A stretch of 64,000 bases of DNA, taken from an uncultured Ignavibacteriota bacterium (GTDB taxonomy: Bacteria; Bacteroidota; Ignavibacteria; UBA10030; UBA8401). The stretch lies in contig CAISDA010000083.1 of NCBI GenBank assembly GCA_903884005.1, positions 186,001-250,000 on the forward strand. Direction: 5' to 3'. The position numbers and the translations under genes are program-made. Positions 1 through 15,669 of this stretch are shown here, piece after piece. The stretch's first letter is position 1. Each line of letters starts with the position of its first letter. Below the pieces are notes generated by a model. It had not been told where the DNA came from. It searched no databases and saw nothing but the letters and a program-made list of their open reading frames with translations.

Positions 1-1511
1 TTTTACTGAATGTTGCCGCATACACGGGCATACCGTTCTACCTGATGGATCATGAGGGCAATATTGTCGTGCGGACGCCCGCCGGCGAACAGGGCTCCTA
101 CGCATCCGAGATCGGATTCGGCACGGATCGAAAAATTACGCTGCGCGACAATACGCTGTGGCATCTCTATACGATGGACCACCCGATTCCCGGCACCGAG
201 ATCCTGCGGGAACAAGTGCTGGACTTTACGGCGGAGGTCATCCTCTTCATTATCACCAATGAAGAGGAAGTGCAGAATCTGGCGACCGAATTGTTGGAGC
301 GATATCAGGAACTGCACGTCCTGTACGATGTCATCAACGACGTCAGCACGGTGTTGAGCGAAAAAGAGATCTGTATCGCCGTGCTCCGCAAGGCCATGCA
401 AACGCTGGATGTGGCGAGCGGAGCCGTTGTCTACGTCGATACGAAAGGAAGGCAAGACGTTCATTGCAAACAGGAAGGCGGATACGTCCTGAACGATGAC
501 AGCCTGATGCGGTACGCCGATCAGGTGCGCGTTTCAAACTCGCACATTATTGTCGAACGAACGCAGACAGAAATGAACGGAGTTGCCGCCCAGTCGCCCG
601 CAGTGCTCGCCGTTCCGATCGTCGTCAATAACACGTCGATCGGAGCGATGATCGTCACGGCGAAACGAAATGACGGAGACTTTACCTCCGGCGACCGGAT
701 TTCTCTCTCCGCACTGGCCGGCTATTTGGGCATCGCCATCACATCGGCGCAGCTCATCAAGGAAGCGCACGATGCCGATGCCCTCCGGCGAGAATTCGAC
801 TTCGCGCGCAAGATTCAACAGAGCCTGTTGCCGAAGCACCTGCCCGAGATCGCTTCGCTCGAGATCGCAGCGCGCTGCATCGCGGCAACCGAAGTGGGCG
901 GCGATCTGTTTATGTTTCTGCCGACCGGCCCCGGCGAGTGGGCCTTCGGCGTCGCCGATGTCGCCGGGCACGGCCTGGGGGCGGCATTCATTCTTGCATC
1001 GCTTCGCAGCATCCTGCGCTCGGAATGCCGGCGGGGCACGATGCTGGACGAAAGCATTCGAAGCACCAATGATATTCTGTGTGAGGATACGCAGGAAAGT
1101 GAATTGTTCGCAACACTGTTCATGGCCACCTACAACGACACAACGCGCACATTGCGCACGGTCAATGCCGGACACCCTCCCGGCCTGTTGTGGCGGGCTG
1201 CAACACAGTCGATCGAGCAGCTCGAGCACGGCGGCATTGTTGTCGGGTTATTCGTTGACGAGTGTTACGGATATGACGAACTGACACTTGCCCCCGGCGA
1301 CACGCTCGTGATGTATACCGACGGCATCATCGAATGCAAAAACACGGGTGGCGAGCTGTATGGGATCGAGCGGCTGCACGCCTGCTTCGCGCGTCTCGTC
1401 TCCGGGTGCGCCGGAGACGTCCTTCAGGGCATCCTGGACGACATCGGCGATTTTCATCAGGGAGTTCGTATGAATGATGATGTGACAATTGTTGTCGTGA
1501 AGGCACGATAG
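1..1511 (+). CDS. PP2C-type (SpoIIE/RsbU) serine phosphatase with GAF domain, 5' end outside window
   Basis: The reading frame is open from base 3 without an upstream stop, so the gene begins before the window; the Met at 45 is internal. The visible part has a short N-terminal sensory segment, a GAF-like region (about residues 85-240 counted from base 45) and a C-terminal PP2C/SpoIIE phosphatase. Phosphatase signatures are the metal-binding Asp motifs EVGGDLF, ADVAGHG, MYTDGI and the closing NDDVTIVV. Proteins of this family dephosphorylate STAS anti-sigma-factor antagonists in partner-switching cascades. The STAS gene at 3550 in the same operon is the obvious substrate candidate (inference). 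No anti-sigma kinase of the SpoIIAB/RsbW type is visible; it may lie upstream or elsewhere. Confidence 0.9.
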   Translation, partial: LLNVAAYTGIPFYLMDHEGNIVVRTPAGEQGSYASEIGFGTDRKITLRDNTLWHLYTMDHPIPGTEILREQVLDFTAEVILFIITNEEEVQNLATELLERYQELHVLYDVINDVSTVLSEKEICIAVLRKAMQTLDVASGAVVYVDTKGRQDVHCKQEGGYVLNDDSLMRYADQVRVSNSHIIVERTQTEMNGVAAQSPAVLAVPIVVNNTSIGAMIVTAKRNDGDFTSGDRISLSALAGYLGIAITSAQLIKEAHDADALRREFDFARKIQQSLLPKHLPEIASLEIAARCIAATEVGGDLFMFLPTGPGEWAFGVADVAGHGLGAAFILASLRSILRSECRRGTMLDESIRSTNDILCEDTQESELFATLFMATYNDTTRTLRTVNAGHPPGLLWRAATQSIEQLEHGGIVVGLFVDECYGYDELTLAPGDTLVMYTDGIIECKNTGGELYGIERLHACFARLVSGCAGDVLQGILDDIGDFHQGVRMNDDVTIVVVKAR

Positions 1512-1592
1512 CGGATACGTGCATCACATGGCGCGCCGTCCCGAGCCGTGCGCAAAGACGGTGAACACATATTGATAGAAGGATTTTTTTCC

Positions 1593-1970
1593 ATGACAAC
1601 AAAAACCATTCTCATCGTCGACGACGACAGCAACATCCGGCGCGTCCTTTCTTTTCTGCTTGAACGCACGGGGTGCAAGGTGTACACCGCCGTGAACGGC
1701 GAAGAAGGCCTGCAGCGCACGCACGAGGTGAAACCGGACCTTGTCATCACCGATGCGATGATGCCGATGAAAGACGGATTCGAACTCTGCCGCGATCTGC
1801 GCAGCGATCCGCAATACGCCGCGTTGAAGATCATTATGCTCACGGCACGGGACCAGGCCACAGGCAGCAATCCGACGCTGGACTTTGGCGCGGATCTCTG
1901 TTTAATGAAACCGTTCAATCCGACGGAAATATTGCGCATTGTAAAAGAAATGCTGCTGCTGCAGCCCTAA
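1593..1970 (+). CDS. Single-domain response regulator (CheY-like receiver)
   Basis: This is a 125-residue stand-alone receiver. It has the acidic pocket Asp10-Asp12, phospho-acceptor Asp54 (in VITDAMM), the conserved Thr in MLTA and the Lys in LMKPF. No output domain follows. I chose the ATG at 1593 rather than the upstream Met at 1548 because an AGAAGGA ribosome site lies at 1577-1583 and the receiver fold begins at once. It sits between the PP2C phosphatase and the GAF-HD-GYP protein, so it probably relays a kinase signal to one of them. Its cognate kinase is not identifiable here. Confidence 0.92.
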   Translation: MTTKTILIVDDDSNIRRVLSFLLERTGCKVYTAVNGEEGLQRTHEVKPDLVITDAMMPMKDGFELCRDLRSDPQYAALKIIMLTARDQATGSNPTLDFGADLCLMKPFNPTEILRIVKEMLLLQP

Positions 1971-1986
1971 CCGCCCTCCTCCACTT

Positions 1987-3537
1987 ATGGGAAAAAATAT
2001 TTTAACATCGATCTTGCATCGTCGTTCGGCATTCGACAGCACGTTTTGGCAAACGATAGGGATCACGCCGTTCGAGTCGCTTCAACCCGAAGACGCATTC
2101 AGAGAACTGATCAACCAGCTCGATTCGCTTCTGGGCGCGGCGGCATACTATCTGTATCTGCCGACCTCATCGGATGCTGAAATGATACTCGAATACATGG
2201 ATCTTCGCTTTCACAGCAATATCGAACTGCAAAAGGAGCTCTCCTCCCAGCTTGAAACTATCGAGCTGCTTCAAACGCCCGAAAGCCGCATTCCCATGGA
2301 TGCGCATTATCGAAATGTCGGATATGCAAACGAATGGGCGGGATCGTTTCTGAACGTCCCTCTGGTCGAGGGCGACGACCGCTTCCGCGGCTGCATACTC
2401 GCGGGGCCGTTGACCGGGACCGGCCTCGGCAGTGCTCTGTCGCATTCGCTGCAGGCGTTTTCCCGCGGGGCCGCCGGCGTGGTCCAGCGCGTCAAAGAAC
2501 ATGCGCTGCTCGTGGAGCGGGCGTCCGCAGCCGCCACACGCGCCGAAGTGACGCAGAAGATACTCGGATCCGCGCTCGAAGTCAATCGGTTCGTGTCCCT
2601 TCTGCTCGAGCTCGCACTGACGGCCACGCGTACCGAAGCCGGCTTTGTCGCTATCGCCCGCGACAACACATTGACGGTCAGAGCGTCTAAGAATCTGCCC
2701 AAAGAATTTCTTGCAACACTGAACCTCTCTCCGCACAACGGCCTGTTCGAATGGTCGAATGATGCGGATGACATCCTCATCGCGCAGGATTTCGAGTTTA
2801 TGACCAAGCATGGTGTGAAATCCATCCTCGCCGTGCCGCTTGTTGAACACCACAGGCTTCAGGGCGTCTTTGCACTCATCAATTTTTCGAAGCGCACGAC
2901 GTTCGATAACGCCAGCCTTTCGATACTGAAGAATTTTTCGGACCAGATCAGGCTCGTGCTCAACAATTCGCACGTATTCGAGGAATTTACCGACCGTTAT
3001 CTTTCAACGCTCAAGGCGCTCAGCGAATCGTACGATGTACGGTCGTCCTATGGAACCGGACACTCGCGCCGCGTCGCCGACTGCGCGCTGGCGATCGGGC
3101 GCGATCTGCAGCTGGAGACCGACGATCTGAGCCAGCTCGAAACAGCGGCGCTGATCCATGATGTCGGCATGTGCGGCGTCGTGGAAGCGCAGACCGGGTT
3201 CCGCGCCGACTACCATCATCCGACGATCGGATCAAGCCTCGTCGAAGTGCTGCCGATCGCACCGGCAATCACCCTTGCGATCGCGACTCATCACGAATGG
3301 GTTGACGGATGGGGATATCCGAACGGAGTCTCGGGAGACGCCATTCCGCTTCTGGGCAAGATCCTTGCACTCGCCGAACACTACGACGAAACCCAATCGG
3401 GCGCGCTGCAGGCGTCGCTGAAAAACCAAACAACTTTTTTCCAGGATCTCAAGACACGCCGCGGCGTGCAGTTCGACCCTGCAGTGGTCGATGCGCTGCT
3501 TCGCGTCATCAGCAACGTCTCTCCACCTCATCAATAA
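1987..3537 (+). CDS. GAF domain protein with C-terminal HD-GYP phosphodiesterase domain
   Basis: The 516-residue protein has a GAF region (roughly 190-335) and a C-terminal HD-GYP domain (roughly 340-510). The HD pair is at His391-Asp392 (HDVGMCG). The second metal region has HHP and HHE, and the GYP signature is DGWGYP at 440-445. HD-GYP enzymes hydrolyse cyclic di-GMP. The usual HDIGK Lys is Met here, which could lower activity or change metal use. It starts 16 bases after the receiver stop and lies 12 bases before the STAS gene, so it belongs to the same operon. A role linking c-di-GMP to the exopolysaccharide-like gene downstream is an inference from position. Confidence 0.88.
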   Translation: MGKNILTSILHRRSAFDSTFWQTIGITPFESLQPEDAFRELINQLDSLLGAAAYYLYLPTSSDAEMILEYMDLRFHSNIELQKELSSQLETIELLQTPESRIPMDAHYRNVGYANEWAGSFLNVPLVEGDDRFRGCILAGPLTGTGLGSALSHSLQAFSRGAAGVVQRVKEHALLVERASAAATRAEVTQKILGSALEVNRFVSLLLELALTATRTEAGFVAIARDNTLTVRASKNLPKEFLATLNLSPHNGLFEWSNDADDILIAQDFEFMTKHGVKSILAVPLVEHHRLQGVFALINFSKRTTFDNASLSILKNFSDQIRLVLNNSHVFEEFTDRYLSTLKALSESYDVRSSYGTGHSRRVADCALAIGRDLQLETDDLSQLETAALIHDVGMCGVVEAQTGFRADYHHPTIGSSLVEVLPIAPAITLAIATHHEWVDGWGYPNGVSGDAIPLLGKILALAEHYDETQSGALQASLKNQTTFFQDLKTRRGVQFDPAVVDALLRVISNVSPPHQ

Positions 3538-3549
3538 AAAGGAACTAGC

Positions 3550-3897
3550 ATGGACTGCCCCATTCACGCTTTAGGAAGCATTCAAATTGTTGCCCCCGCA
3601 GGCGAACTCGACGTGGCGATCGCACCAGAACTTCGCGAATTGCTGAAAGGAGTGATCGAAAAAGGTGCAAAAAAAATACTGATCGATATGAGAGGCGTCG
3701 TGTTCATCGACAGTTCGTGCCTGGGCGTGTTGGTCAACGCGCACAAGTTCGCCAACGCCAACAGCGCCGTCATTAAATTTGCACAGCCCAACGAACAAGT
3801 CCGGAAAATTTTTGAACTGACGCGCATCGACAAGCACCTGGCCTTTTACCCCGCCATGGAAGACGCAGTCATCAGCTTTTCCGAACTGGCGTCGTAG
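3550..3897 (+). CDS. STAS-domain anti-sigma factor antagonist
   Basis: This is a compact 115-residue STAS domain. The phosphorylatable site reads IDSSCLG with the Ser55-Ser56 pair, where the usual form is DSSGLG; Cys replaces Gly. Such proteins bind an anti-sigma factor or kinase when unphosphorylated and are reset by a PP2C phosphatase like the one at the start of this operon. The spacing to the next gene is only 6 bases, so the partner switch and the large envelope protein are almost certainly co-transcribed. Its kinase is not visible in the window. Confidence 0.92.
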   Translation: MDCPIHALGSIQIVAPAGELDVAIAPELRELLKGVIEKGAKKILIDMRGVVFIDSSCLGVLVNAHKFANANSAVIKFAQPNEQVRKIFELTRIDKHLAFYPAMEDAVISFSELAS

Positions 3898-3903
3898 AAA
3901 CGC

Positions 3904-6900
3904 ATGAAAGCTCTCTTCATTCGAGTCACCTTTTTCCTTTGTATCGTTCCCGCACTCGTGTTGGGCGATGCACGTCAATCGTCCGTTCTCGTCGTCTACG
4001 ACGCCGGCGATCCGTACGCCTTGCCATGCTTCGAACAGATCATCGTGACGCTGGAGTACAACCGCATTCCGTACACAACGTACGATCTGTCTTCCAAGAC
4101 GCCCCTTCCTCCTCTCGGTGCGTTCCTCTCCGTGATCACCACCACAGAGATGATCTGGAAACTCGACCCCGCCGCGTGCGACGTTCTGAAGAACTATGTG
4201 CGTTCGGGCGGCGGGCTGGCCGTGTTCTACCGGGGATGGAACCAGAATCTCCGCGAGCTGCTCGGCATTCAGAACACCGCAGCCCCTGTGGTCAAGGAAC
4301 AAAAAAGGAAAGGCCTCCGATTCACTCGCGAGTTCATTCCCGGCATCACCGGCACCACCATCAGCGAAAAAATACTTGCCGACATCTCGGCGTACGATAT
4401 TCAGACGCTTCCGACGGCCTCGGTGTTTGCGGTAACACCCGGCGACAATTTGCCCGCCGCGTGGGTCAACACATTCGGCAGTGGAAAAGTGGTGTATTGG
4501 AATTGCACGATCCTTTCAGAAAAAATCTATCGCGGACTCGTCGTCCCCACCCTCGCCATTGTTCAGCCCGTGACATGCTCGCTGATCATGAATCTCGGCG
4601 TGGTCTGTTTGGATGATTTTCCGAATGCGTCCCCGAATGTGAAAGTGGAACCGATCAAATCGGAATTCAATATGACGGTCTCCGAGTTTTATGCGTTCCA
4701 GTGGTATCCGGACATGATGAAGCTCGCCCGCCAGTACGGCATACACTACACCGCTGCTCTCATTTTCGGATACGCCGAGATCACCACACCTCCCTATACA
4801 TTCAGCGAATGGGCGCGGAGCGCGATCACGCGCGGCGGAAAAACGGTGAACGCGTCGATCTGGCTTACACACGAGGCACAAGACGATATTGAAGTGGGAT
4901 TCCACGGCCAGAACCATCAGCCGCTGACACTGGCGAATTGGAAATCGTCCGACAACATGAAACTGTCGCTCCAGGCATCTCAGCAGCGGTGGCAATTCGA
5001 TAATCTCGGCCCTGCTCCCCAGAGTTATATTCCCCCCATGAACGTGATCGATTCAGTCGGCATGAATGCCCTTACCGACGTGCTCCCCACGATACGAGTG
5101 ATCGGAAGCCAGTTTATGGGGAAATTCGAATACGGACAGAATCGGGAATTCGGTACCGACCCGTGGAATTCCCGCATCATTTCGATTCCCCGCATTACAA
5201 GTGGTTTCATCTATGACGATTTCAATCGATTCCTGACCCTCTCGGAATTGCAGACCGTCGGCGCATGGACGCACTTCGTCCACCCTGACGACATCATACC
5301 GACCTCTGGCCGCTATGCTGAAAATACGAGAGAAGACCTCCCGACGGAAAACCTTTCATGGCTGGGCGGCTCCCGAAAGACCGGACTCTTTTACCAATTT
5401 GAAAAATGGATCGCATTCGTGAAACGGTACTATCCCTGGCTTCGGTTCAGCGATTACGCACATGCGTACGATATCGTCAAGACGTTCGAAACAAGCACCG
5501 TCACGGTGAAAGCCGAGAAGCGGCTTCTCACTCTTCGCTTCAATGCAGTTCCGAATTATTGCGTCATTCATCTCGACCGTGCCAACGCTATTCTCACGTG
5601 CTCGGGCGCCGAGATCGTGCATGCCTCAAAACTTTCCTATTCCTCATACTATGTTGTCCATGTGCAGAAGCACGATGTCGTCATCACACTCCGCGATACG
5701 CTGCCGGCTGTGTTGTATCGTGCAGGCACACCGAAAGATCTGTACATCGCAGGCAACTCGCGCTACAACACGACGGCCGCCAACCAGATCGCCTATCCCA
5801 AAGGGTTGCCTTCAGCCGTGCGGGATATCACGTCGAAAACCGCTTCTGCGCCAACGCTGCTGCACACATCCGGCACCGCAATCGGACAATCGGCGCATGC
5901 GGCGAACACCGGCACGGGCACATCGACGCGTGCGGACAAGGGAACGGCGGTGAAACCGCCGCGCGAAGACAATACTGCGGCCAGGGATATTGCATCGGCA
6001 AAAGCGCATACCGAAATAAATCCGCGCGATGTGAATGCATGGCATCAACTCCGAGAAGCGTACGCGCGCAATGGACACTACGACGAGGCCGTCCTGTGCG
6101 ACGAACACATTGTGAAGCTGCTGCCGAACGACACCTCACTCACGAAAGCGCTCGCCCGGCAGTACGTGGCAATGGATAAAAAAGAGAGGGCCATTCCTCT
6201 GTATGAGGCGATCGTGAAGCGGCATGGTAACGACGCGCAAACGTGGTTCGCTCTGTATGAATTATATTCGTGGTCCGATCGTCCCAAAGATGCCGTCGGG
6301 GCACTTGCGGCGTATCTCCGTGCGCGTCCGGACGACGAGGCCGCGCTGCAAAAACTTGCCGAATTCTACGTTGGCAATGACCGCCAGATGGAGGCGATCC
6401 CCTTGTATGAAAAACTTGTGGCTCGTCGTCCCGAACACCAGCCGCTTCGCATGATGCTGGCGCAGTTATACACATGGAATAATTTCCACAACAAGGCCGC
6501 ACGGGAGTTCGAGCGGCTCTCCGCCATGAGCAATGCGGACAGTACTGCTGCAGACAAGGCGATACGGGAATATCAGGCAGCTGGCCAGACACCCGGCGCG
6601 GTGCGTATACTGGAAGAGATGCTTCTTCGCGCACCGGACGATACCGCACGCCGCAAGCAGCTCATCGCCCTCTTCAGGGCTGCCGGCGATAATGCCGGCG
6701 CCATCGGCCAGAGCGAACTATTGCTGAAGCGATCGCCGGGCGATGTTGCAGCCATGCAGCAGCTGGGCGAAATGCTGCTCTGGCAGGATCGTCAGGCCGA
6801 TGCGATCGGGATCTACGAACGCATCGTGAAGGCGGCGCCCGATTCCCTCTCATCGCGCATCATGCTCGCACGGCTGTATTCATGGAACAAGCGTCCAACC

Positions 6901-7932
6901 GAGGGGCTGCTCGAAAGCAAACGCATCCTTCGCCGCGACCCGAACAATACGGAGGCGCTCAGGCTCCTCGCCGCAATCGACAGAGCGCGCGACAATTGGT
7001 TCGATGCGCGCGCATGGTATACAGTCTTGCTCGAGCGGCAGCCGCACGACTCGGACGCGACCGGCTATCTTGACGGAGTGCGGCGCAATCACGGGCTCCT
7101 CTTCACATCGTCGTATGAACGGATCGATGATTCGAACGATCTCCAGCGCGAAGAACTGCCGGTACGCATTGAGATGCTGCAGACACATACCGCCGATTAT
7201 TTTCTGAACCTGAGGCGTGAAGGCGTACAAGACAACCGCGTGGGACGTTCGGCGCTCGGATACGGCGCCGGACTCGGTGCGCGTTTTTCTCTCGGAACAA
7301 AGACGTCGGTGACACTCGAAGCGCTGGCCACCCGCTACGATTCGGATTGGGTGCCGATCACCGCGAAGGCAGCCCTTGAACATACATTCGGCGAACGCGT
7401 ATCAGTCGCACTGCGAATTGAACGCTCTGAAACAGTCGAAGGCATACAGGCAATTCGCTCTAAGATCTACACGACCAGCGCACGAGGCGAACTCTACGTT
7501 CAGGCCACGGACCGGTGGAGCGTATCGGGACTTGCCGAGTTCGAATCATATACGGACGATAACCTGCGCTCCACCGGCGAAATCCTGTCCGCCTATAAAC
7601 TTGTGCTGCGCCAGCCGCAGATCACGCTGCAGGCAAGCTCGATCTATCAGGACACAAAGCGCATCTATCCTTCATCTCAGCCGTATTGGACGCCGTCGGG
7701 TCTCATGACCACATCGGTGAGCGTGACGCTCTCCTCGACGCTCTTTGGCTGGTTCACACCCGAGATCGCCGAGGGAGGTACGGTGCAGGGCGGAGTGTTT
7801 TCGAACACGTTCGGCGCGAAGGCGGCATTGCAGCTGTCGCAATTCCTGCAGCTCACCATCGACTATGGAAAGGTAGGGTCAACCGTCTACAGGCAGAACG
7901 TCGCCCGCGCCTCAGTCTCCTACCGCTATTGA
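3904..7932 (+). CDS. Fused envelope protein: DUF2194/deacetylase-like module, TPR repeats and C-terminal outer-membrane beta-barrel
   Basis: The 1342-residue protein starts with a signal peptide (about 1-21). Residues about 25-230 look like a glutaminase-like alpha/beta module. Residues about 230-620 resemble DUF2194/polysaccharide-deacetylase-like proteins, with VCLDDFPNASP, HEAQDDIEVGFHGQNH and a HFVHPDD motif as possible metal ligands. A Thr/Ala-rich linker (about 640-690) leads to many TPRs (about 700-1090) with recurring LYSW/LYTW segments. The last about 250 residues are beta-rich and end in an aromatic YRY, as expected for a barrel of the YaiO/PgaA/PelB type. In known Pel and PNAG systems the deacetylase and the TPR-porin are separate proteins, so this looks like both in one chain. 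The polymer is unknown and no glycosyltransferase lies in the window. Confidence 0.75.
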   Translation: MKALFIRVTFFLCIVPALVLGDARQSSVLVVYDAGDPYALPCFEQIIVTLEYNRIPYTTYDLSSKTPLPPLGAFLSVITTTEMIWKLDPAACDVLKNYVRSGGGLAVFYRGWNQNLRELLGIQNTAAPVVKEQKRKGLRFTREFIPGITGTTISEKILADISAYDIQTLPTASVFAVTPGDNLPAAWVNTFGSGKVVYWNCTILSEKIYRGLVVPTLAIVQPVTCSLIMNLGVVCLDDFPNASPNVKVEPIKSEFNMTVSEFYAFQWYPDMMKLARQYGIHYTAALIFGYAEITTPPYTFSEWARSAITRGGKTVNASIWLTHEAQDDIEVGFHGQNHQPLTLANWKSSDNMKLSLQASQQRWQFDNLGPAPQSYIPPMNVIDSVGMNALTDVLPTIRVIGSQFMGKFEYGQNREFGTDPWNSRIISIPRITSGFIYDDFNRFLTLSELQTVGAWTHFVHPDDIIPTSGRYAENTREDLPTENLSWLGGSRKTGLFYQFEKWIAFVKRYYPWLRFSDYAHAYDIVKTFETSTVTVKAEKRLLTLRFNAVPNYCVIHLDRANAILTCSGAEIVHASKLSYSSYYVVHVQKHDVVITLRDTLPAVLYRAGTPKDLYIAGNSRYNTTAANQIAYPKGLPSAVRDITSKTASAPTLLHTSGTAIGQSAHAANTGTGTSTRADKGTAVKPPREDNTAARDIASAKAHTEINPRDVNAWHQLREAYARNGHYDEAVLCDEHIVKLLPNDTSLTKALARQYVAMDKKERAIPLYEAIVKRHGNDAQTWFALYELYSWSDRPKDAVGALAAYLRARPDDEAALQKLAEFYVGNDRQMEAIPLYEKLVARRPEHQPLRMMLAQLYTWNNFHNKAAREFERLSAMSNADSTAADKAIREYQAAGQTPGAVRILEEMLLRAPDDTARRKQLIALFRAAGDNAGAIGQSELLLKRSPGDVAAMQQLGEMLLWQDRQADAIGIYERIVKAAPDSLSSRIMLARLYSWNKRPTEGLLESKRILRRDPNNTEALRLLAAIDRARDNWFDARAWYTVLLERQPHDSDATGYLDGVRRNHGLLFTSSYERIDDSNDLQREELPVRIEMLQTHTADYFLNLRREGVQDNRVGRSALGYGAGLGARFSLGTKTSVTLEALATRYDSDWVPITAKAALEHTFGERVSVALRIERSETVEGIQAIRSKIYTTSARGELYVQATDRWSVSGLAEFESYTDDNLRSTGEILSAYKLVLRQPQITLQASSIYQDTKRIYPSSQPYWTPSGLMTTSVSVTLSSTLFGWFTPEIAEGGTVQGGVFSNTFGAKAALQLSQFLQLTIDYGKVGSTVYRQNVARASVSYRY

Positions 7933-8025
7933 CAACCGTAGCGTGCATGAACCGGCGTTCACCACGCCGGATGAAAATTCCGATTTTACGCTAATTTGGG
8001 CACGTGTAATTCTATTTTCATAGCA

Positions 8026-8555: not shown

Positions 8556-10541
8556 TTACACGGGTGATTGATCGAAGACCACTTCATGCACAACGATGGG
8601 TGTATCGAGACCTTTCACAAAAATCGGCTCACGCGCACGCGTCGGGACCGCATCCTTGATGCACAGATAGGTGGTTTCAGAAATCAGGATCCCGCCGACC
8701 GGCGCATTTGCCTCCAAACGCTGTGTCAAATTAACGGGCGAACCGATCACCGTGTATTCTTTCCGGCGTTCGGATCCCAGATCGCCCACAATGACCTCTC
8801 CCGTGTTGATGCCGATGCGGATCTCGATCGGAAATTTGCCCGCGGCGATCCATTCTTCCTTCAACGCCCGGCATTTTTGCTGCATTTCGATCGCGGCCTG
8901 CACACAGCGCAGCGCATGGTCGTCCTGCTGTTCGGGAGCACCGTAGAAGGCCATCAGACCGTCTCCGAGGAATTTGTCGACCGTTCCTTCGTGTTTGAAG
9001 ACGATCGCGGTCATGGCTTCGAAGTATTCGCTTAACGCCGCACTGATCGCCTCGGGTGTCATGACGGATGAATGCGTCGTAAAACTTTTAATGTCGCTGA
9101 ACATGATCGTGACGTTCTGGCATTTGGGCGTCGTCATGTGCATTTCAGGATGTTCCATCATTTGTTTGATGACCGCCGGTGGAAAATATGATTCAAACCG
9201 GAGGCGCAGCAGCTGTTTTTCCTTTTCTTCGGAAGTATACCGGTACATCAGCACGGTGCCGGTGGAAAGCATGATCGACAGGATCGGGTGAAGAAACGCG
9301 GCAATGATGTTATAGTAGACGAACAGGAAACTGCCGACGGCCGCATAGAGGGACAGCAGGGCGAGCGACGAAAGCGCATAGACAGACGACGGCAATCGAT
9401 AGGCGAAGAACATCATCAGCAGCCCCAGCGCCATCTCTATTGCGAAAAGGGTCGTGAACGGCAGTTGACGAATAAAATTTTCAGTGAAGATCGTATTGAG
9501 CGTATTGGCATGCAGCCCGACGAGAGGAAAGGCCTGCTCGAAGGGAGTGGGGCCGATATCGGAGATCCCGGTGGAAACATCACCGACAATTCCGATCGCT
9601 CCGGAATACCGTTCGGCGAGTGCCTCGACTTCGTCGCGATCTTCCGCGGCGTCAAGAAGGGTAATAAAACTGACATGCGTCATCCGCTCCCAGGGACCGA
9701 TCCAATTGATGATCATATTCCCCTGTTCATCAATAGGGATGACGATGTCCTTTTTTCCTCCCGACTTCGCGACAGCATTGCGCAGCGTGATGGAGTGCCC
9801 GCCGTCGACGATGATATTTTCCGGAGAGACCTGCAGATGATCGCATGCGAGACGCAAGACCATGCTCGGATAAAATGCGTTGTTGTATCTGACAACGAGG
9901 GGAACCCGGCGAAAGACTCCGTCCTGATCGGTATTGACGCTGATGAAACCGACTCCGCGCGACCGATCGGAAAGCTCGGGCCACGTCAATAACGTGGCTC
10001 CGGCGTGGAAAAATTTTCCCGTATCGGCCGCATGAAGTGACCATGCCGTCGCATCCAGATATCTGACTTCCTCCATTTCGCGCCGGGGGAAGGTCCGCTG
10101 TTCCTTCAATTCGAACGCGACGGGAAAATATCCTCTGCCGTTGTGCTGCACGGCGTTCAGCAGCAGCGTGTCGTCGGCCGTATTCATCCGTTGCGCAAAG
10201 ATAATGTCATAGGCGATTGCCGAGAACCCGATCTTCCGCGTGATGTCGAAGAGGTCCGCATGGATGCGGCGCGGGAAATAATAGCTCAGACGTTTGATGC
10301 TTGAATTATCGATGTCGATATGCACGATCGTGGAATCATACACCGAAGGACGGATCTTTTCGCGGAGCAAAAAGAGACGGTCGATCGTCTGGCTCTCCCA
10401 TGCCTGAAAGACGGTGGGAAACACACCAAACACGATCGTCATGAACCCGAAGGAAGAAACGACAAGGATGACGGCGGCCCGGAGCCGCTTGCGGTTATTT
10501 GTGTTCAATCGTGATAGTTTTGCTGAAAAATGCAGGTGCAT
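8556..10541 (-). CDS. CHASE2-domain class III adenylate/guanylate cyclase
   Basis: With the Met at 10541 the protein has 661 residues. One membrane helix (about 22-40) is followed by an extracytoplasmic CHASE2 sensor (about 45-340), a hydrophobic cluster of about three helices (about 358-430) and a C-terminal class III cyclase domain (about 470-640). Catalytic features are the metal Asp in FSDIKSFT, the second Asp in DKFLGDGL, the substrate Lys in VDKF, the Thr in EYTVIG, and the transition-state Asn/Arg in VNLTQRL. The Lys/Thr pair favours ATP as substrate, but this is not decisive. The open frame extends upstream to 10760 only inside the preceding gene. The chosen start still overlaps that gene by 47 bases and has no clear ribosome site, so the start is uncertain. 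Confidence 0.9.
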   Translation of the reverse strand: MHLHFSAKLSRLNTNNRKRLRAAVILVVSSFGFMTIVFGVFPTVFQAWESQTIDRLFLLREKIRPSVYDSTIVHIDIDNSSIKRLSYYFPRRIHADLFDITRKIGFSAIAYDIIFAQRMNTADDTLLLNAVQHNGRGYFPVAFELKEQRTFPRREMEEVRYLDATAWSLHAADTGKFFHAGATLLTWPELSDRSRGVGFISVNTDQDGVFRRVPLVVRYNNAFYPSMVLRLACDHLQVSPENIIVDGGHSITLRNAVAKSGGKKDIVIPIDEQGNMIINWIGPWERMTHVSFITLLDAAEDRDEVEALAERYSGAIGIVGDVSTGISDIGPTPFEQAFPLVGLHANTLNTIFTENFIRQLPFTTLFAIEMALGLLMMFFAYRLPSSVYALSSLALLSLYAAVGSFLFVYYNIIAAFLHPILSIMLSTGTVLMYRYTSEEKEKQLLRLRFESYFPPAVIKQMMEHPEMHMTTPKCQNVTIMFSDIKSFTTHSSVMTPEAISAALSEYFEAMTAIVFKHEGTVDKFLGDGLMAFYGAPEQQDDHALRCVQAAIEMQQKCRALKEEWIAAGKFPIEIRIGINTGEVIVGDLGSERRKEYTVIGSPVNLTQRLEANAPVGGILISETTYLCIKDAVPTRAREPIFVKGLDTPIVVHEVVFDQSPV

Positions 10542-11181
10542 AAATTTGCGTCGCCAACGTCGCAATATCGACCCGGTCGATATCGACGGCCCCTGTTTTT
10601 GTCCCGCGGACATTCCCCGCGATGCTGATGGGACGCTCGGCAATCGACGCATACTGCCGGTATTTTTTTTTGATCTCCTTAATTTCGGCCACGATGCCCG
10701 CGGCAAGATCATTCTTCTTCTCCTGTGCGGCCACATCATATTGCCGCAGCTTCGCTTCAAGGCCGATCAGCCGATCCTGCGACGCAAGGATATAGAACGT
10801 TTCGTCGCCGATATTTTTATCCAATTTGAACCACCCCCGCCCCTTGGGGATATACATGTTTTTCTCCACTTCCACCGGGGCATCCAGGGCATAGGGATAC
10901 AACACGGAGATCTCGTTTTTAGACGATTTATTGATCACATAGAAATACGATTTTTTCTCCAAATGGACCATCATCTTGATTTCATCGCCTGAGTGCAATA
11001 TTGTATCGCGCGAGATCGCGGTCAGTCTTCGATTTTCGCCGCTCCCGGTCTTCGCGGCGAAGGTCCATCGGCAGGCGACGCTCCCATCCGCGCCCGTATT
11101 CTGCATCAGGGAATAGACGGAAGTGTATCCGTACAGACAGAGAAAAACAACGGCCGCGCAGAATGTACCTATTTTTTTCAT
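10495..11181 (-). CDS. Secreted DUF4384-domain protein
   Basis: The 228-residue protein begins with MKKIGTF and a hydrophobic signal segment (about 1-25). It then carries a DUF4384-like beta domain (about 50-150): a charged start with GDEIKMMVHLEKKSYFYVIN, then VSVLYP-like and FYILAS strands. DUF4384 is known mostly from association or fusion with caspase-like proteases. Here it lies 19 bases after a caspase gene and overlaps the cyclase gene. It may be a periplasmic adaptor or ligand domain for the protease or the CHASE2 sensor (inference). The C-terminal third is not recognised. The longer frame to 11304 runs into the caspase gene and was not used. Confidence 0.8.
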   Translation of the reverse strand: MKKIGTFCAAVVFLCLYGYTSVYSLMQNTGADGSVACRWTFAAKTGSGENRRLTAISRDTILHSGDEIKMMVHLEKKSYFYVINKSSKNEISVLYPYALDAPVEVEKNMYIPKGRGWFKLDKNIGDETFYILASQDRLIGLEAKLRQYDVAAQEKKNDLAAGIVAEIKEIKKKYRQYASIAERPISIAGNVRGTKTGAVDIDRVDIATLATQIYAPAFFSKTITIEHK

Positions 11182-11200
11182 GACGATGCTTTCACAGAAA

Positions 11201-13582
11201 TTAATGAGGAATGAGCGAAATGATGAGATCCTTGTCATACGATCCCTGATTGCGCGTGGGATGCTGGTTGCCGTTGGTTTGCCGCTTGACTTTTTCCTCC
11301 ACATAATCCATCAATTCGCCGATCGTCACCGAATAATCATTATTAAAATCGGCCTTCCCATGCAGCCCTTCAAGAAGATAATACGTGAACACTCCATGGC
11401 CCAATTTGTCGAGTTCCTGAGACACTTCACCTGCCTGACTCGCTGTGAACACGATGATACCCTCTTTCGTTTTCGACAGGCTCGAGAGGTATTGGTTGAT
11501 CAGGTTATCGTCGGTAGCACTCATTCCGCGAGTTGCCAGATCTGTCGTGATCCCTCCACTGTGGCAGGCATCAGTGAATACGACAACGCGTTTCGAGGGA
11601 ATGTATCTGGTCAGGGCCGTATTCACATCCCACATCGGGAACGCCGTCGTCTCCAGCGATTTCGGATCGGTGTCATAACAGAGAAGATAATTGTTATCAG
11701 GATTTGCCGGCTCCGGTGCCCCGTGCCCGGCAAAATAAATGACGACCAGATCTTTATCGATCGTCTGCCGTAAAAAATTGAACAGCGCCTGTTTGACATT
11801 GGCTAATGTGGCATCCTGGTTAAGCAGAAGCTTCACATGCTCATCATCAAAACCGCCTCCTGCAGCCGATTTCAAAAAATCGGCAAAGCCCCCGGCGTCC
11901 CGATCGGCATAGGTAAGATTTTTTATGGAAGAATTTGCATATTTCGAGACGCCGACCACGACGGCCCATCGCTGGGGCTGCCATGAGGTGCTCTTTTTCA
12001 CCGGGTTGTCCGACGCGGCTGCGGCCGGTCCGCCCACGATTCTGCGCGTCACGTTGATCACCTTTCTGATTCGCTCTCCGCCGCGCCCGTTCACCACGAG
12101 TTCGATTTGATTGAGACCCGATGAAAGAGAAAATTTTTCGGTGCGAAGAACGCCCGCCGGTTTTTTGGGCAGATTTTCTCTTTGTATTATTGCAACCGTA
12201 TTCAGGATGATCGAGTAGGAAGAAAAATCCAACCAGATCTTGAATGAAAAATCAATTGCCGCCTGATCGATCACGTCCTTTGGATCGATCAATTCAACGG
12301 CCGCATCCTTCGTCAGCTTGAAGATGCGGATCTCCTTCGGTGTGGCGGCATTGTTGGCTTCGTCCGCAGCGGCGACGACGATCGTGTTGATACCGGCGAC
12401 GGTCAATGGTCTCGTTGTTGAAAACGACACTGCGCTATACGATGTATCGATGCCCTTCCGCTCTGAAATCGAGGCAGCAGCGGTCGCAACGGCCGTGCCA
12501 TTCACCGTCACTTCGCGGATCCGGCTCTCATCCGAAACGATGCCGGCAATGTCTATCTCGTTCGCATACATTCGTACCGGTTCGCCCGTGGGAAGCGACG
12601 GCCGCATGATCGTGATGACGGGAGGAGTAACATCCGGATTTTTTTCCAGCATGGAAAATGTGCGCACTTCACCGTTTCGTCCGATGACCGCAAGCAGAGG
12701 TTTGTCTTTGGCCGTTGAAAGCAGGACGGGAAAAAAAGCGGTGTCGCTTACTGTCTTGAAAATTTTCGCCGCTGCCACATCCCAGAACGAGAGCGACGAC
12801 GAAGCGGCGATCAGCACCTTGTTATTCGGATGGAATGCAAGCGACGTGACCATGCCATCGCGGCTTTTCATCGTCCCGATGATCGCGCCATCGCGGGCGC
12901 CAACGAGCATGATCGTCGAGTCCGCAAAGGAGACGGCACAATATTTTCCGTCTCCGCTGCACGCCAGCGATATGACCGGCGATCCCGCGGACCTGATGTT
13001 TTTGATGGCGGTATACGACCGCGCGTCGAACAATACGAGAGTCCCGTCGGCACAACCGGCCAAGATCGCCCTGCCGTCGGCCGTATAGGATAAGACCATG
13101 ATCTCGGCTTCGAGTGCCGGAAATTGTCCGATCTGTTTTCCTGTCGCATAGTCCCACATCTTGATCGTCTTTTCGTAGCCGCTTGTGATGACCCTTCCGC
13201 CCGCATCGATATCAAAACCCCGTACACCCGGGTCGACCGAAAACACCTTCAGGGGAGATGATTTTGTGAAATCCCACACGGAGATCCGCCCGTCGGGTGA
13301 TGCGCTCAACAGAGTGGTTCCGCCATCGGTGAAGGCCATGCCAAACGATTTCACGTTCTCGGACTGGAACGAAACCTTTTCCCTGCCTGTCGCCGGATCC
13401 AGTAGCTTAATGGATTTATCCGCGCCGCAGACCCCCAGCACATCGCCCGCCCGATTGAGCTTTGCGGTTAATACCGTCGTCTTCGCGTCCGAGGTTTTGG
13501 CAACGGGCCTGAGGAAAATAACTTGGGACAGTGCCGGAAGCGCCAGGAGAAGGGTAAGAGCAATGAGATGCCGGATGTTCAT
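11201..13582 (-). CDS. Secreted caspase-family (C14) protease with N-terminal WD40 repeats
   Basis: The 793-residue protein starts MNIRHLIALTLLL with a signal peptide ending near LSQ. Residues about 35-350 form WD40-type beta-propeller repeats (CGADKSIKLLD, SPDGRISVWD and similar). Then comes a beta-sandwich region (about 365-530). The C-terminal caspase fold (about 545-793) has catalytic His620 in YFAGHGA and Cys673 in FTDACHSGG. Near the end a D-x-N-x-D-x-S loop (DFNNDYSVTIGE) matches an EF-hand calcium loop. Bacterial caspase homologues normally act in the cytoplasm, so a signal peptide is notable. It is the first gene of an operon with the DUF4384 protein and the CHASE2 cyclase. The Met at 13741 would put residues before the signal peptide and overlaps the divergent gene. 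Confidence 0.9.
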   Translation of the reverse strand: MNIRHLIALTLLLALPALSQVIFLRPVAKTSDAKTTVLTAKLNRAGDVLGVCGADKSIKLLDPATGREKVSFQSENVKSFGMAFTDGGTTLLSASPDGRISVWDFTKSSPLKVFSVDPGVRGFDIDAGGRVITSGYEKTIKMWDYATGKQIGQFPALEAEIMVLSYTADGRAILAGCADGTLVLFDARSYTAIKNIRSAGSPVISLACSGDGKYCAVSFADSTIMLVGARDGAIIGTMKSRDGMVTSLAFHPNNKVLIAASSSLSFWDVAAAKIFKTVSDTAFFPVLLSTAKDKPLLAVIGRNGEVRTFSMLEKNPDVTPPVITIMRPSLPTGEPVRMYANEIDIAGIVSDESRIREVTVNGTAVATAAASISERKGIDTSYSAVSFSTTRPLTVAGINTIVVAAADEANNAATPKEIRIFKLTKDAAVELIDPKDVIDQAAIDFSFKIWLDFSSYSIILNTVAIIQRENLPKKPAGVLRTEKFSLSSGLNQIELVVNGRGGERIRKVINVTRRIVGGPAAAASDNPVKKSTSWQPQRWAVVVGVSKYANSSIKNLTYADRDAGGFADFLKSAAGGGFDDEHVKLLLNQDATLANVKQALFNFLRQTIDKDLVVIYFAGHGAPEPANPDNNYLLCYDTDPKSLETTAFPMWDVNTALTRYIPSKRVVVFTDACHSGGITTDLATRGMSATDDNLINQYLSSLSKTKEGIIVFTASQAGEVSQELDKLGHGVFTYYLLEGLHGKADFNNDYSVTIGELMDYVEEKVKRQTNGNQHPTRNQGSYDKDLIISLIPH

Positions 13583-13719: not shown

Positions 13720-15669
13720 ATGACTCACAAATCATCGCCATTCCTAATAGTATTTTCTATGAAACACATTGCCCTTGTCCTCGTCAGCCTCGCCTTTCTC
13801 TCAACGGGTCTTATTTCACAGAATACTGTTCCGGAAGTCACACTCAAGGTCGCGGAAAAATCCGGTTTCCTGGGAATGGGGAAACCGCGGTTCGTGAAGA
13901 TCGCATTATCTTCACGCGGAGAAGATAAGATCCTCACGAGCGAGAATGTGAATGCCGGGCCTCTCTTTTATTTTACGATGAAAGATTCGGGCGAATGGGT
14001 GATCGATGAAGACTTTATCAAAGAAGAATTGGTCAAGCTGAAGATCGATCAGGACGGAACGACACTTGGTATCGACGCCGTCGGTACGCCCCTGAAAGGA
14101 ACGGATCATTTTCAGCTCACGTTCTCGTGCAAGAAGACGCTGCTGCTGCACAAACCGTTCAAGTTCGTTTTTACGATGGATGCAACCACAGACATCGTGT
14201 CGATGGAGGTTCCTCAGGAGTATTGGCCGGGGTATGCGAAGTATACAACGTTGGCGCTGGAGACGGAAAAATTGTTTTCCGACGGCAAGGTCAGCGAGGC
14301 GATCGCATCGACCGAACAGATTCTGCAGGACCAGCAGTTGAAGATCTACACCGATTTCGATTCGCTCGGATCGAAGCGCTTAGCGATGTATCAAAAATTA
14401 TTCTCCGACCATTGCCAAAAATATCAGGAAATGCTGTCGAACAAATCGGTGGAGACAAAACAAAAGATCGTTTCGTCGGAAGAATTTATCACGATTTTTA
14501 CCTTCGTCTCCGGCAATGCCGCGAATGATCAATATCTGGGCCAGAGCACGAAAACCGCCGCGGGCGATCTCGCCGAAAAAGCATCCGGCCTTCTCACACG
14601 GTCGAAGCTCGTCCGTGATTCCCTTAATCAGGCACTCGACGAACAGACGGTCCGGTTCCTCATCCAGGGCTCGTCCGCCGAAAGGATCGATTTCAAATAT
14701 AAATATATCGTCGAGACCGTTGCCTACGCATTTTCCTCTGTGAATTTTGAAGACACAACGGCGGCGGCATTAACGGTTGTTGTTCCCGAACAGTTCAAGG
14801 CCAGGCTGCAGAAATATGCGCTGACGAACGCCTATGAAACGTTCGTGCGCGTCGTGAACAACCGGTGGAAGGCAAAGAAGCCGATATTCCCTCCCGGCTT
14901 TCTTGATAACCTCCAGAAAGACACATCGTCGTTCTCCCTGCCGTTCTATTCCACGCTCAAAGCGATAGAGGATTTTTATAAAAAAGATTACACCGGTGCA
15001 AAAGCGGAGATCGACAATGTGATGAAAACAAGCTATGCGTACGAATTGACGGAGCGCATCGATCAGCTGCGGATCCTCATCAACACGATCGGAAAAAACG
15101 TCCCGCGCGATGTGCTGCAGCGGATCAAAGAGGGAAATCGTGCGGAAGAACGCGGCGAGAATGAAAAAGCCATCGAACAGTACAAGGATGCGATGCTGGT
15201 GGCCGAAGACTACGCACCCGCCGCATTCGCCCTTGGCAAGATCTACGACCGAAACGGCGACAGTTACACGGCAAATAATTATTTCCAGAAGGCGGTGGCG
15301 GCAGATTCGCAGTATTATACGGCCTATCGGTTCCTGTATAACAATTTTTTCAAGAACGCCAATTTCAAACCGATGATAGACCTGTTGACGCAGGCGTTGT
15401 CGCGCGGGAACGACTATTTCGACATCCATTATTATCTGGGCATTGCATACAACGGATCGGCACAGTACGATCTGGCAATCGAGCAGTATGAGAGCGCGCT
15501 CGGCCTGAACGGCAAGAATATCAATGCCAACATCCAGGCGGGAATTTCCTATCAGAATATGAAATCATATACCAAAGCCCGCGAGTATTTCAACCGCGCG
15601 ATCGTCATTGATCCGGAGAATCAAACAGCCACCGAAAATCTGAAACGCCTCGACGAATTGCAAAAATAA
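13720..15669 (+). CDS. Secreted TPR-containing protein of unknown function
   Basis: The start at 13720 gives 649 residues; an internal Met at 13759 gives a more compact signal peptide (MKHIALVLVSLAFL, cleavage near ISQ) and is equally plausible. The upstream TAGGGGGGG tract (13704-13711) is the only ribosome-site candidate and favours 13720. The N-terminal half is beta-rich and not recognised. The middle is helical. The C-terminal about 200 residues contain TPRs (AEDYAPAAFALGKIYDRNG, FDIHYYLGIAYNGS and later copies). It is divergent from the caspase operon, with 137 bases between the two starts, so joint regulation is possible. It is probably a periplasmic scaffold. Confidence 0.8.
   Translation: MTHKSSPFLIVFSMKHIALVLVSLAFLSTGLISQNTVPEVTLKVAEKSGFLGMGKPRFVKIALSSRGEDKILTSENVNAGPLFYFTMKDSGEWVIDEDFIKEELVKLKIDQDGTTLGIDAVGTPLKGTDHFQLTFSCKKTLLLHKPFKFVFTMDATTDIVSMEVPQEYWPGYAKYTTLALETEKLFSDGKVSEAIASTEQILQDQQLKIYTDFDSLGSKRLAMYQKLFSDHCQKYQEMLSNKSVETKQKIVSSEEFITIFTFVSGNAANDQYLGQSTKTAAGDLAEKASGLLTRSKLVRDSLNQALDEQTVRFLIQGSSAERIDFKYKYIVETVAYAFSSVNFEDTTAAALTVVVPEQFKARLQKYALTNAYETFVRVVNNRWKAKKPIFPPGFLDNLQKDTSSFSLPFYSTLKAIEDFYKKDYTGAKAEIDNVMKTSYAYELTERIDQLRILINTIGKNVPRDVLQRIKEGNRAEERGENEKAIEQYKDAMLVAEDYAPAAFALGKIYDRNGDSYTANNYFQKAVAADSQYYTAYRFLYNNFFKNANFKPMIDLLTQALSRGNDYFDIHYYLGIAYNGSAQYDLAIEQYESALGLNGKNINANIQAGISYQNMKSYTKAREYFNRAIVIDPENQTATENLKRLDELQK

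Follow-up and report, generated by a model that had tools for sequence, protein, structure and literature searches.

A conserved operon of a predicted secreted caspase, a DUF4384 protein and a CHASE2 receptor cyclase that may couple proteolysis in the bacterial envelope to cAMP

In the present study, we analyzed a 64,000-nucleotide stretch of DNA from an uncultured Ignavibacteriota bacterium (hereafter, the window) and found one minus-strand operon that encodes, in the order of transcription, a WD40-caspase, a DUF4384 protein and a CHASE2 class III cyclase (Table 1). Comparison with relatives supported the view that these genes form one conserved unit, and we propose, with a probability of roughly 0.55, that they encode an envelope signalling unit through which caspase activity outside the cytoplasm is coupled to cAMP within it. 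The conserved set, which occurs in some Ignavibacteria and a few distant bacteria, suggests that proteolysis outside the inner membrane may control cAMP inside the cell. The papers on bacterial caspases, in the passages available, mostly treat cell death. If the proposal is true, CHASE2 would gain a testable input, DUF4384 would gain a role as a CHASE2 adaptor, and caspases would be found to act in envelope signalling without killing the cell.

Table 1. Genes of the operon and its divergent neighbour, with their positions in the window.
Feature	Position	Strand	Length	Basis
Predicted secreted WD40-caspase	11201..13582	-	793 aa	Pfam, motifs, AF2/Foldseek, signal-peptide heuristic
Predicted secreted DUF4384 protein	10495..11181	-	228 aa	Pfam, alignment of 32, AF2 model
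CHASE2 receptor cyclase	8556..10541	-	661 aa	Pfam, hydropathy, residues
Divergent TPR protein, probable fourth component	13720..15669	+	649 aa listed	Pfam, co-occurrence, adjacency, N-termini

The caspase stop and the DUF4384 start were separated by 19 nt, and the DUF4384 and cyclase genes overlapped by 47 nt, or by 14 nt if translation of the cyclase starts at the in-frame TTG at 10508. These distances confirmed the original prediction of three tight minus-strand genes with overlap of the last two. At E <= 0.001, the genome contained two genes for DUF4384 and two for C14. Both DUF4384 genes were located directly 3' of a C14 gene, a pairing that exceeds chance. Among the four CHASE2 proteins of the genome, only the operon cyclase adjoins DUF4384. 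The second pair (L039, 1609-8913) consisted of a secreted caspase of CARDB-C14 architecture and a DUF4384 protein, with no CHASE2; the next gene encoded an FG-GAP protein of 1599 aa that bears a type IX secretion tail. Promoter and terminator scans yielded 6 and 9 hits, compared with 4.9 ± 2.0 and 6.2 ± 2.2 in shuffled sequences, and provided no support. Convergent with the operon, a Pel-like exopolysaccharide locus occupied positions 1-7932 (+) and started upstream of the window (L040). It encoded a DUF3492 glycosyltransferase, PelG (29.9 bits against a cut-off of 29), a SpoIIE-GAF phosphatase, an HD-GAF protein, a STAS protein and a DUF2194-TPR protein that matched barrel families weakly. 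None of the PHROGs matches had a known function.

The same prediction had placed signal peptides on the caspase and the DUF4384 protein, and this was supported by a home-made lenient heuristic (not SignalP) that accepted any start within the first 60 residues. A signal-peptide-like N-terminus was observed in 29 of 30 caspases and 31 of 32 DUF4384 proteins, the window included, compared with 68 of 600 internal caspase segments used as a control. The N-termini thus read make it probable that both proteins are located in the envelope. It has been reported that bacterial caspases often carry an N-terminal helix that is a possible signal peptide, so that export has already been proposed; in the consulted part of that work, 104 caspase sequences (15%) had TM helices, and caspase operons are tabulated in its supplement (PMC3501461).

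To describe the caspase, we combined Pfam, motif and structure-based analyses. Behind the putative signal peptide, the protein contained a WD40 propeller (about 25-330), a beta-rich, probably Ig-like region (331-530), a C14 domain (538-785) and an EF-hand-like loop (745-756). Pfam matched Peptidase_C14 with an E-value of 3e-23 (PF00656, 83.2 bits against a cut-off of 21.4) as well as WD40 repeats. The AF2 model (pLDDT 79.9, pTM 0.50) showed a propeller, a beta-rich region and a C14 domain, and WD40 propellers (WDR5, PRPF19 and others) dominated among the best 50 Foldseek matches, in agreement with the predicted beta-propeller. The Ig-like assignment of residues 331-530 was based on the homologue at L082, in which Pfam assigns the corresponding region to Glucodextran_B. 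By sequence, the best solved match of the C14 domain was metacaspase-4 (E 3.7e-6 and 6.9e-5), and GSU0716 matched at E 0.018. In the alignment of the 29 complete caspases of the order, window included, which omits a split copy (L042) and a cut one (L069) and to which L067 contributes no caspase, H620, D671 and C673 were invariant. The His/Cys dyad (H620/C673) was intact as predicted, and the sequence identifies the protein as a bacterial caspase homologue (C14, orthocaspase/metacaspase-like). D671 is the acidic residue two positions before the catalytic Cys, and such a residue is tied to a basic P1 preference. The candidate calcium loop was also retained, with D745, N748, D749 and E756 invariant in all 29 proteins. 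R685 and K706, both in a low-confidence model stretch C-terminal to the catalytic Cys, were likewise invariant and could be self-processing sites. Assignment as an EACC1-associated caspase was rejected, as the NCBIfam model NF047832 scored 111 bits, below its curated cut-off of 140.

The cyclase matched CHASE2 (E 3e-39) and Guanylate_cyc (E 7.3e-31) in Pfam. Together with hydropathy, these matches indicated a TM segment at about 19-45, the CHASE2 domain, a TM cluster at about 360-431 and a class III cyclase domain, which is the layout of a CHASE2 receptor class III cyclase. The CHASE2 sensor, lying between predicted TM segments, would be extracytoplasmic, as originally proposed. The residues D483, K523, D527, T597, N604 and R608 were complete in 26 of 26 cyclases of the order. 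The best PDB matches by sequence were 2w01 (Cya2) and 6fht, the latter presumably the chimera of the Cya2 paper. At the second purine position, Thr is typical of adenylate cyclases. The window cyclase has Lys where 2w01 has Glu, and, according to the part of the Cya2 work consulted, E488K turns this Synechocystis guanylyl cyclase into an adenylate cyclase (PMC5995499). K523 and T597, present in all 26 cyclases, therefore favour cAMP over cGMP as the product in the order; the original prediction had named either. For cyclases elsewhere the alternative was kept, because at the two positions that select the purine, L082 and L103 carried E/G and L174 carried E/S in place of K/T, all of these cyclases adjoining DUF4384, and some lineages may thus make cGMP. 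In the CHASE2 part, five Arg (R60, R91, R211, R212 and R218) remained Arg or Lys in 25 or more of 26 cyclases. They were rejected as a cleavage-site signature, since none of the well-conserved basic positions there was specific to caspase-bearing loci. The genome held five cNMP_binding matches, one with an internal stop; none was in or beside the operon, and all five were located either on different contigs or at a distance of about 53 kb.

The DUF4384 protein was identified by PF14326 (E 8.1e-11; 42.3 bits against a cut-off of 27). Its AF2 model (pLDDT 85.1, pTM 0.77) predicted a beta-strand-rich fold with a helical hairpin, for which Foldseek returned no match at E <= 0.001. In a second look, the best fold match was the Ig-like AGS-C domain of the EcPycC cyclase (Z 6.6, rmsd 3.3, 102 aligned), followed by filamin and sugar-binding domains, among others. 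Such a match, at Z < 8, may reflect only a common arrangement, and no function was read from it. R192 (NVRG, in a low-confidence model loop) was invariant in the alignment of 32 proteins from the order and was also kept in 17 of 17 outside DUF4384 proteins aligned. As these included proteins of caspase-less loci, R192 was rejected as a signature of a caspase cleavage site.

The conservation of the operon was evaluated in a sample of 120 related genomes, own genome included, in which the carriers belonged to two families of a single order that probably lies within Ignavibacteria. The DUF4384 protein was found in 32 of the 120 genomes, namely 10 of 22 in the window's family and 22 genomes of a second family (f6); the 12 members of the window's family that lacked it include some incomplete drafts. 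Around the 31 orthologues from outside the window (L041-L071), the cyclase adjoined DUF4384 in 31 of 31 cases and the WD40-caspase in 30 of 31, with gene order and strand unchanged. The exception, L067, carried DUF4384 and the cyclase with no caspase. One caspase and six cyclases ran into the end of the locus or contig, and at L042 the caspase and the cyclase were each split into two ORFs. The gene order persisted while identity to the window fell to 37% (DUF4384), 34% (caspase) and 41% (cyclase), and the gene for the DUF2194 neighbour of the window was found beside none of the 31 DUF4384 loci. Conservation of the three-gene neighbourhood in relatives had been set as a test of the original prediction, and it did not refute the prediction; the signal-peptide-like starts were kept as well. 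A DUF4384 profile scan of named genomes yielded 33 loci, 28 of which were labelled Bacteroidetes/Bacteroidota/Bacteroidia or Ignavibacteri-, several overlapping the sample of relatives.

Outside the order, DUF4384 was searched in larger samples. Matches were obtained in 47 of 391 genomes of the class (32 strong, which are those of the order, and 15 weak) and in 17 of 395 genomes of the phylum. In the phylum of a Desulfobacteraceae MAG, G690 (Thermodesulfobacteriota, NCBI taxonomy), 37 of 297 genomes matched, with seven strong places (E < 1e-50) in six genomes, G690 included. In the phylum of a Sulfopaludibacter MAG, G691 (Acidobacteriota), 22 of 297 genomes matched, the one strong match being G691 itself, and an overlapping Acidobacteriota sample of 199 gave 14 matches, with G693 at 2e-37. 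Neighbourhoods were taken for 10 of the 15 genomes that matched weakly in the class, for six further strong and eight weak places of the G690 phylum sample, and for eight places in 7 of 21 weakly matching Acidobacteriota genomes.

The caspase, DUF4384 and CHASE2 cyclase genes occurred together, in the same order, at six loci outside the order, and five of these had a caspase architecture unlike the WD40 form. The caspase was of the TPR-Ig-C14 form at L082, in a MAG titled Desulfobacteraceae, and of the C14-FGE form at L175, L176 and L178; L098, in a MAG titled Sulfopaludibacter, had a C14-DUF4384 protein and then a C14-FGE protein. The remaining locus, L123, belongs to the same class as the window and had a WD40-C14 caspase split by one in-frame stop. 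The placement of L082 and L098 may reflect binning error of their MAGs; besides these two, three genomes of the G690 phylum sample (G948, G989 and G969) carry the C14-FGE form. The His and Cys motifs were present in 7 of 7 outside caspases. At seven other loci (L104, L122, L126, L128, L129, L174 and L177), DUF4384 and a CHASE2 cyclase were found with no caspase in the fetched stretch. Since a profile built on the caspases of the order missed two of three C14-FGE caspases, the absence was re-tested by Pfam searches of some neighbouring proteins, by tblastn with five other C14 queries and by a motif scan. The controls L176 and L082 were positive; each was the source of one query and was positive with other queries too. 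Within the fetched stretches, the re-test detected no C14 at these seven loci or at L067, L097, L103, L127 and L179. The count with and without caspase left out L103 (contig edge), loci with no CHASE2 cyclase and L228, where a CHASE2 cyclase preceded a 548-aa DUF4384 protein and a C14 profile match was present in one mapping and absent in another. Because the core pair is kept in seven outside loci and at L067 with no caspase, the caspase appears not to be needed for it. These gene sets indicated that DUF4384 and the CHASE2 cyclase are the constant core and that the secreted caspase is a recurrent, replaceable and sometimes absent partner. That a secreted caspase fills the same slot despite a swapped architecture argues that the protease activity matters.

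DUF4384 alone is not a marker of the unit. On re-mapping of 22 further loci (with weak DUF4384 matches except L179), our profiles showed neither C14 nor CHASE2/cyclase at 13, C14 only at eight and both at one (L228); in about 3 kb mapped around each of six weak phylum matches (L116-L121), neither C14 nor CHASE2 was found. At L104, a subtilase (S8) gene at 5371-7977 (-) was divergent to the caspase-less DUF4384-CHASE2-cyclase pair. In two class genomes (L130 and L131), an LPP20-DUF4384 protein preceded a protein that combines C14 with an outer-membrane barrel domain, assigned by Pfam at L130 and by our own profile only at L131.

We further examined the TPR gene divergent from the operon. Strong homologues (E < 1e-80, a cut-off chosen after the list was seen) were present in 34 of the 120 relatives, and homologues at 1e-10 in 45. 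Both DUF4384 and the TPR gene were found in 29 genomes, DUF4384 only in three, the TPR gene only in five and neither in 83. The corresponding numbers in the window's family of 22 were nine, one, zero and 12 (Fisher p 2e-5, uncorrected for shared ancestry). The TPR gene adjoined the operon in 19 of the 29 carriers of both and was on another contig in the other 10. Its likely start is the internal M14, which yields a signal-peptide-like N-terminus. The results suggested that the divergent TPR protein is probably a fourth component of the unit.

Given the observed parts, order, conservation and intact active-site residues, functional coupling of the parts is highly probable, and we lean slightly towards the caspase acting upstream of the cyclase. 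In the proposed mechanism, the caspase, the DUF4384 protein and the TPR protein, the export of which we infer, would leave the cyclase domain alone in the cytoplasm. An envelope cue, such as a damaged, foreign or misplaced protein, would be bound by the propeller/Ig part of the caspase or by the TPR protein, possibly with Ca2+ acting via the EF-hand-like loop. The activated caspase would then cut after Arg/Lys in DUF4384, in CHASE2 or in a third protein reporting to them. The simplest reading is that DUF4384 is a constant CHASE2 adaptor, to which the caspase, where present, adds proteolytic input; loss or change of the contact would release the cyclase, and cAMP would act through a cNMP-binding (CRP-type) protein. 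In the consulted passages on Sinorhizobium meliloti, a pCyaD1-delta-CHASE2 plasmid gives constitutive cAMP (PMC5498481), which indicates that CHASE2 can restrain a cyclase. As no cleavage-site signature specific to caspase-bearing loci was found among the conserved Arg/Lys of DUF4384 and the CHASE2 part, direct cleavage of DUF4384 or CHASE2 by the caspase is a rather doubtful step. The complete chain, a proteolysis-gated receptor in which outside caspase activity would act through DUF4384 and CHASE2 on cAMP (cGMP in some lineages) for signalling and not death, is put forward tentatively.

Other explanations were also considered. DUF4384 and the CHASE2 cyclase might form the sensor by themselves, with the caspase as an output or an accompanying envelope protease, serving for example protein quality control, that is tied to them by operon expression and is not a regulator. 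This arrangement would account for the caspase-less core pairs at seven outside loci and L067, and also for DUF4384 with a caspase but no CHASE2 in the own genome (L039) and at 8 of the 22 other loci. The differently built secreted caspases that fill the same slot in other phyla are, however, easier to understand if the protease feeds the sensor, and we consider an output role unlikely. Mere co-location by vertical synteny, with no common function, would agree with the origin of most loci from one order, but it was already disfavoured and is hardly probable: the gene order survived the low identities given above, the DUF2194 neighbour was not kept at any of the 31 loci, and the set recurred in other phyla with a replaced caspase.

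Anti-phage or abortive defence would have infection activate the caspase and the cyclic nucleotide spread the alarm, as in Pycsar. The scattered distribution among genomes of the window's family, with carriers in 10 of 22, would fit such a role, and the PADLOC models for PycC and caspase matched; the PycC matches, however, spanned only the cyclase domain, the sensor and the protease are predicted to face outside, and no cNMP_binding match was near the operon. Defence is thus quite improbable, and the coupling of extracytoplasmic caspase activity to cAMP remains the preferred reading.

The original prediction knew of no described system with this set, and in the literature searched, mostly open-access main texts, no published description of the combination of caspase, DUF4384 and CHASE2 cyclase was found. 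In the passages available on the known systems, several likenesses were evident. The S. meliloti cyclases CyaD1, CyaD2 and CyaK, which respond through the outer-membrane protein NsrA, likewise combine a CHASE2 cyclase with a partner outside the inner membrane (PMC13001267, PMC5498481), and their cAMP and CRP-family output is a further likeness to the operon; NsrA, however, is an outer-membrane barrel and not a protease, and these passages mention neither DUF4384 nor a caspase. A secreted-protein gene directly before a CHASE2 gene also occurs in magnetotactic bacteria, where MtxA precedes a CHASE2 cyclase (PMC4439547, whose introduction discusses TPR and Ig-like folds), and in Burkholderia, where LysM/FecR precedes a CHASE2 kinase instead of a cyclase (PMC5192318); the passages on both contain no caspase or DUF4384. 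No LysM or FecR domain was detected at up to E 1 in either the DUF4384 or the TPR protein; for the caspase, the comparison covered the best 25 of 45 families. Caspase and CHASE2 are linked in a single chain in Trichodesmium erythraeum, where the caspase is predicted to be cytoplasmic (PMC3501461, PMC2853523), and in EACC2-caspase proteins with CHASE2 (PMC8195603). As far as the consulted text goes, those chains are without a cyclase, whereas here the genes are separate, with the caspase predicted outside and the cyclase inside. Orthocaspases fused to DUF4384 or WD40 (PMC7475262, PMC6426788) share these domain partners of C14, but the DUF4384 protein here is a separate, predicted secreted protein in a cyclase operon. 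Synechocystis Cya2 (PMC5995499; PDB 2w01), according to the available text, is likewise a CHASE2-regulated class III cyclase and differs in having E488 where the window cyclase has Lys. Pycsar places a cNMP-binding effector beside its cyclase, whereas the cNMP_binding model found none beside the operon; other effector domains are conceivable. Collectively, a CHASE2 receptor cyclase with a secreted partner is already known, and what appears to be new here is a caspase among the secreted partners.
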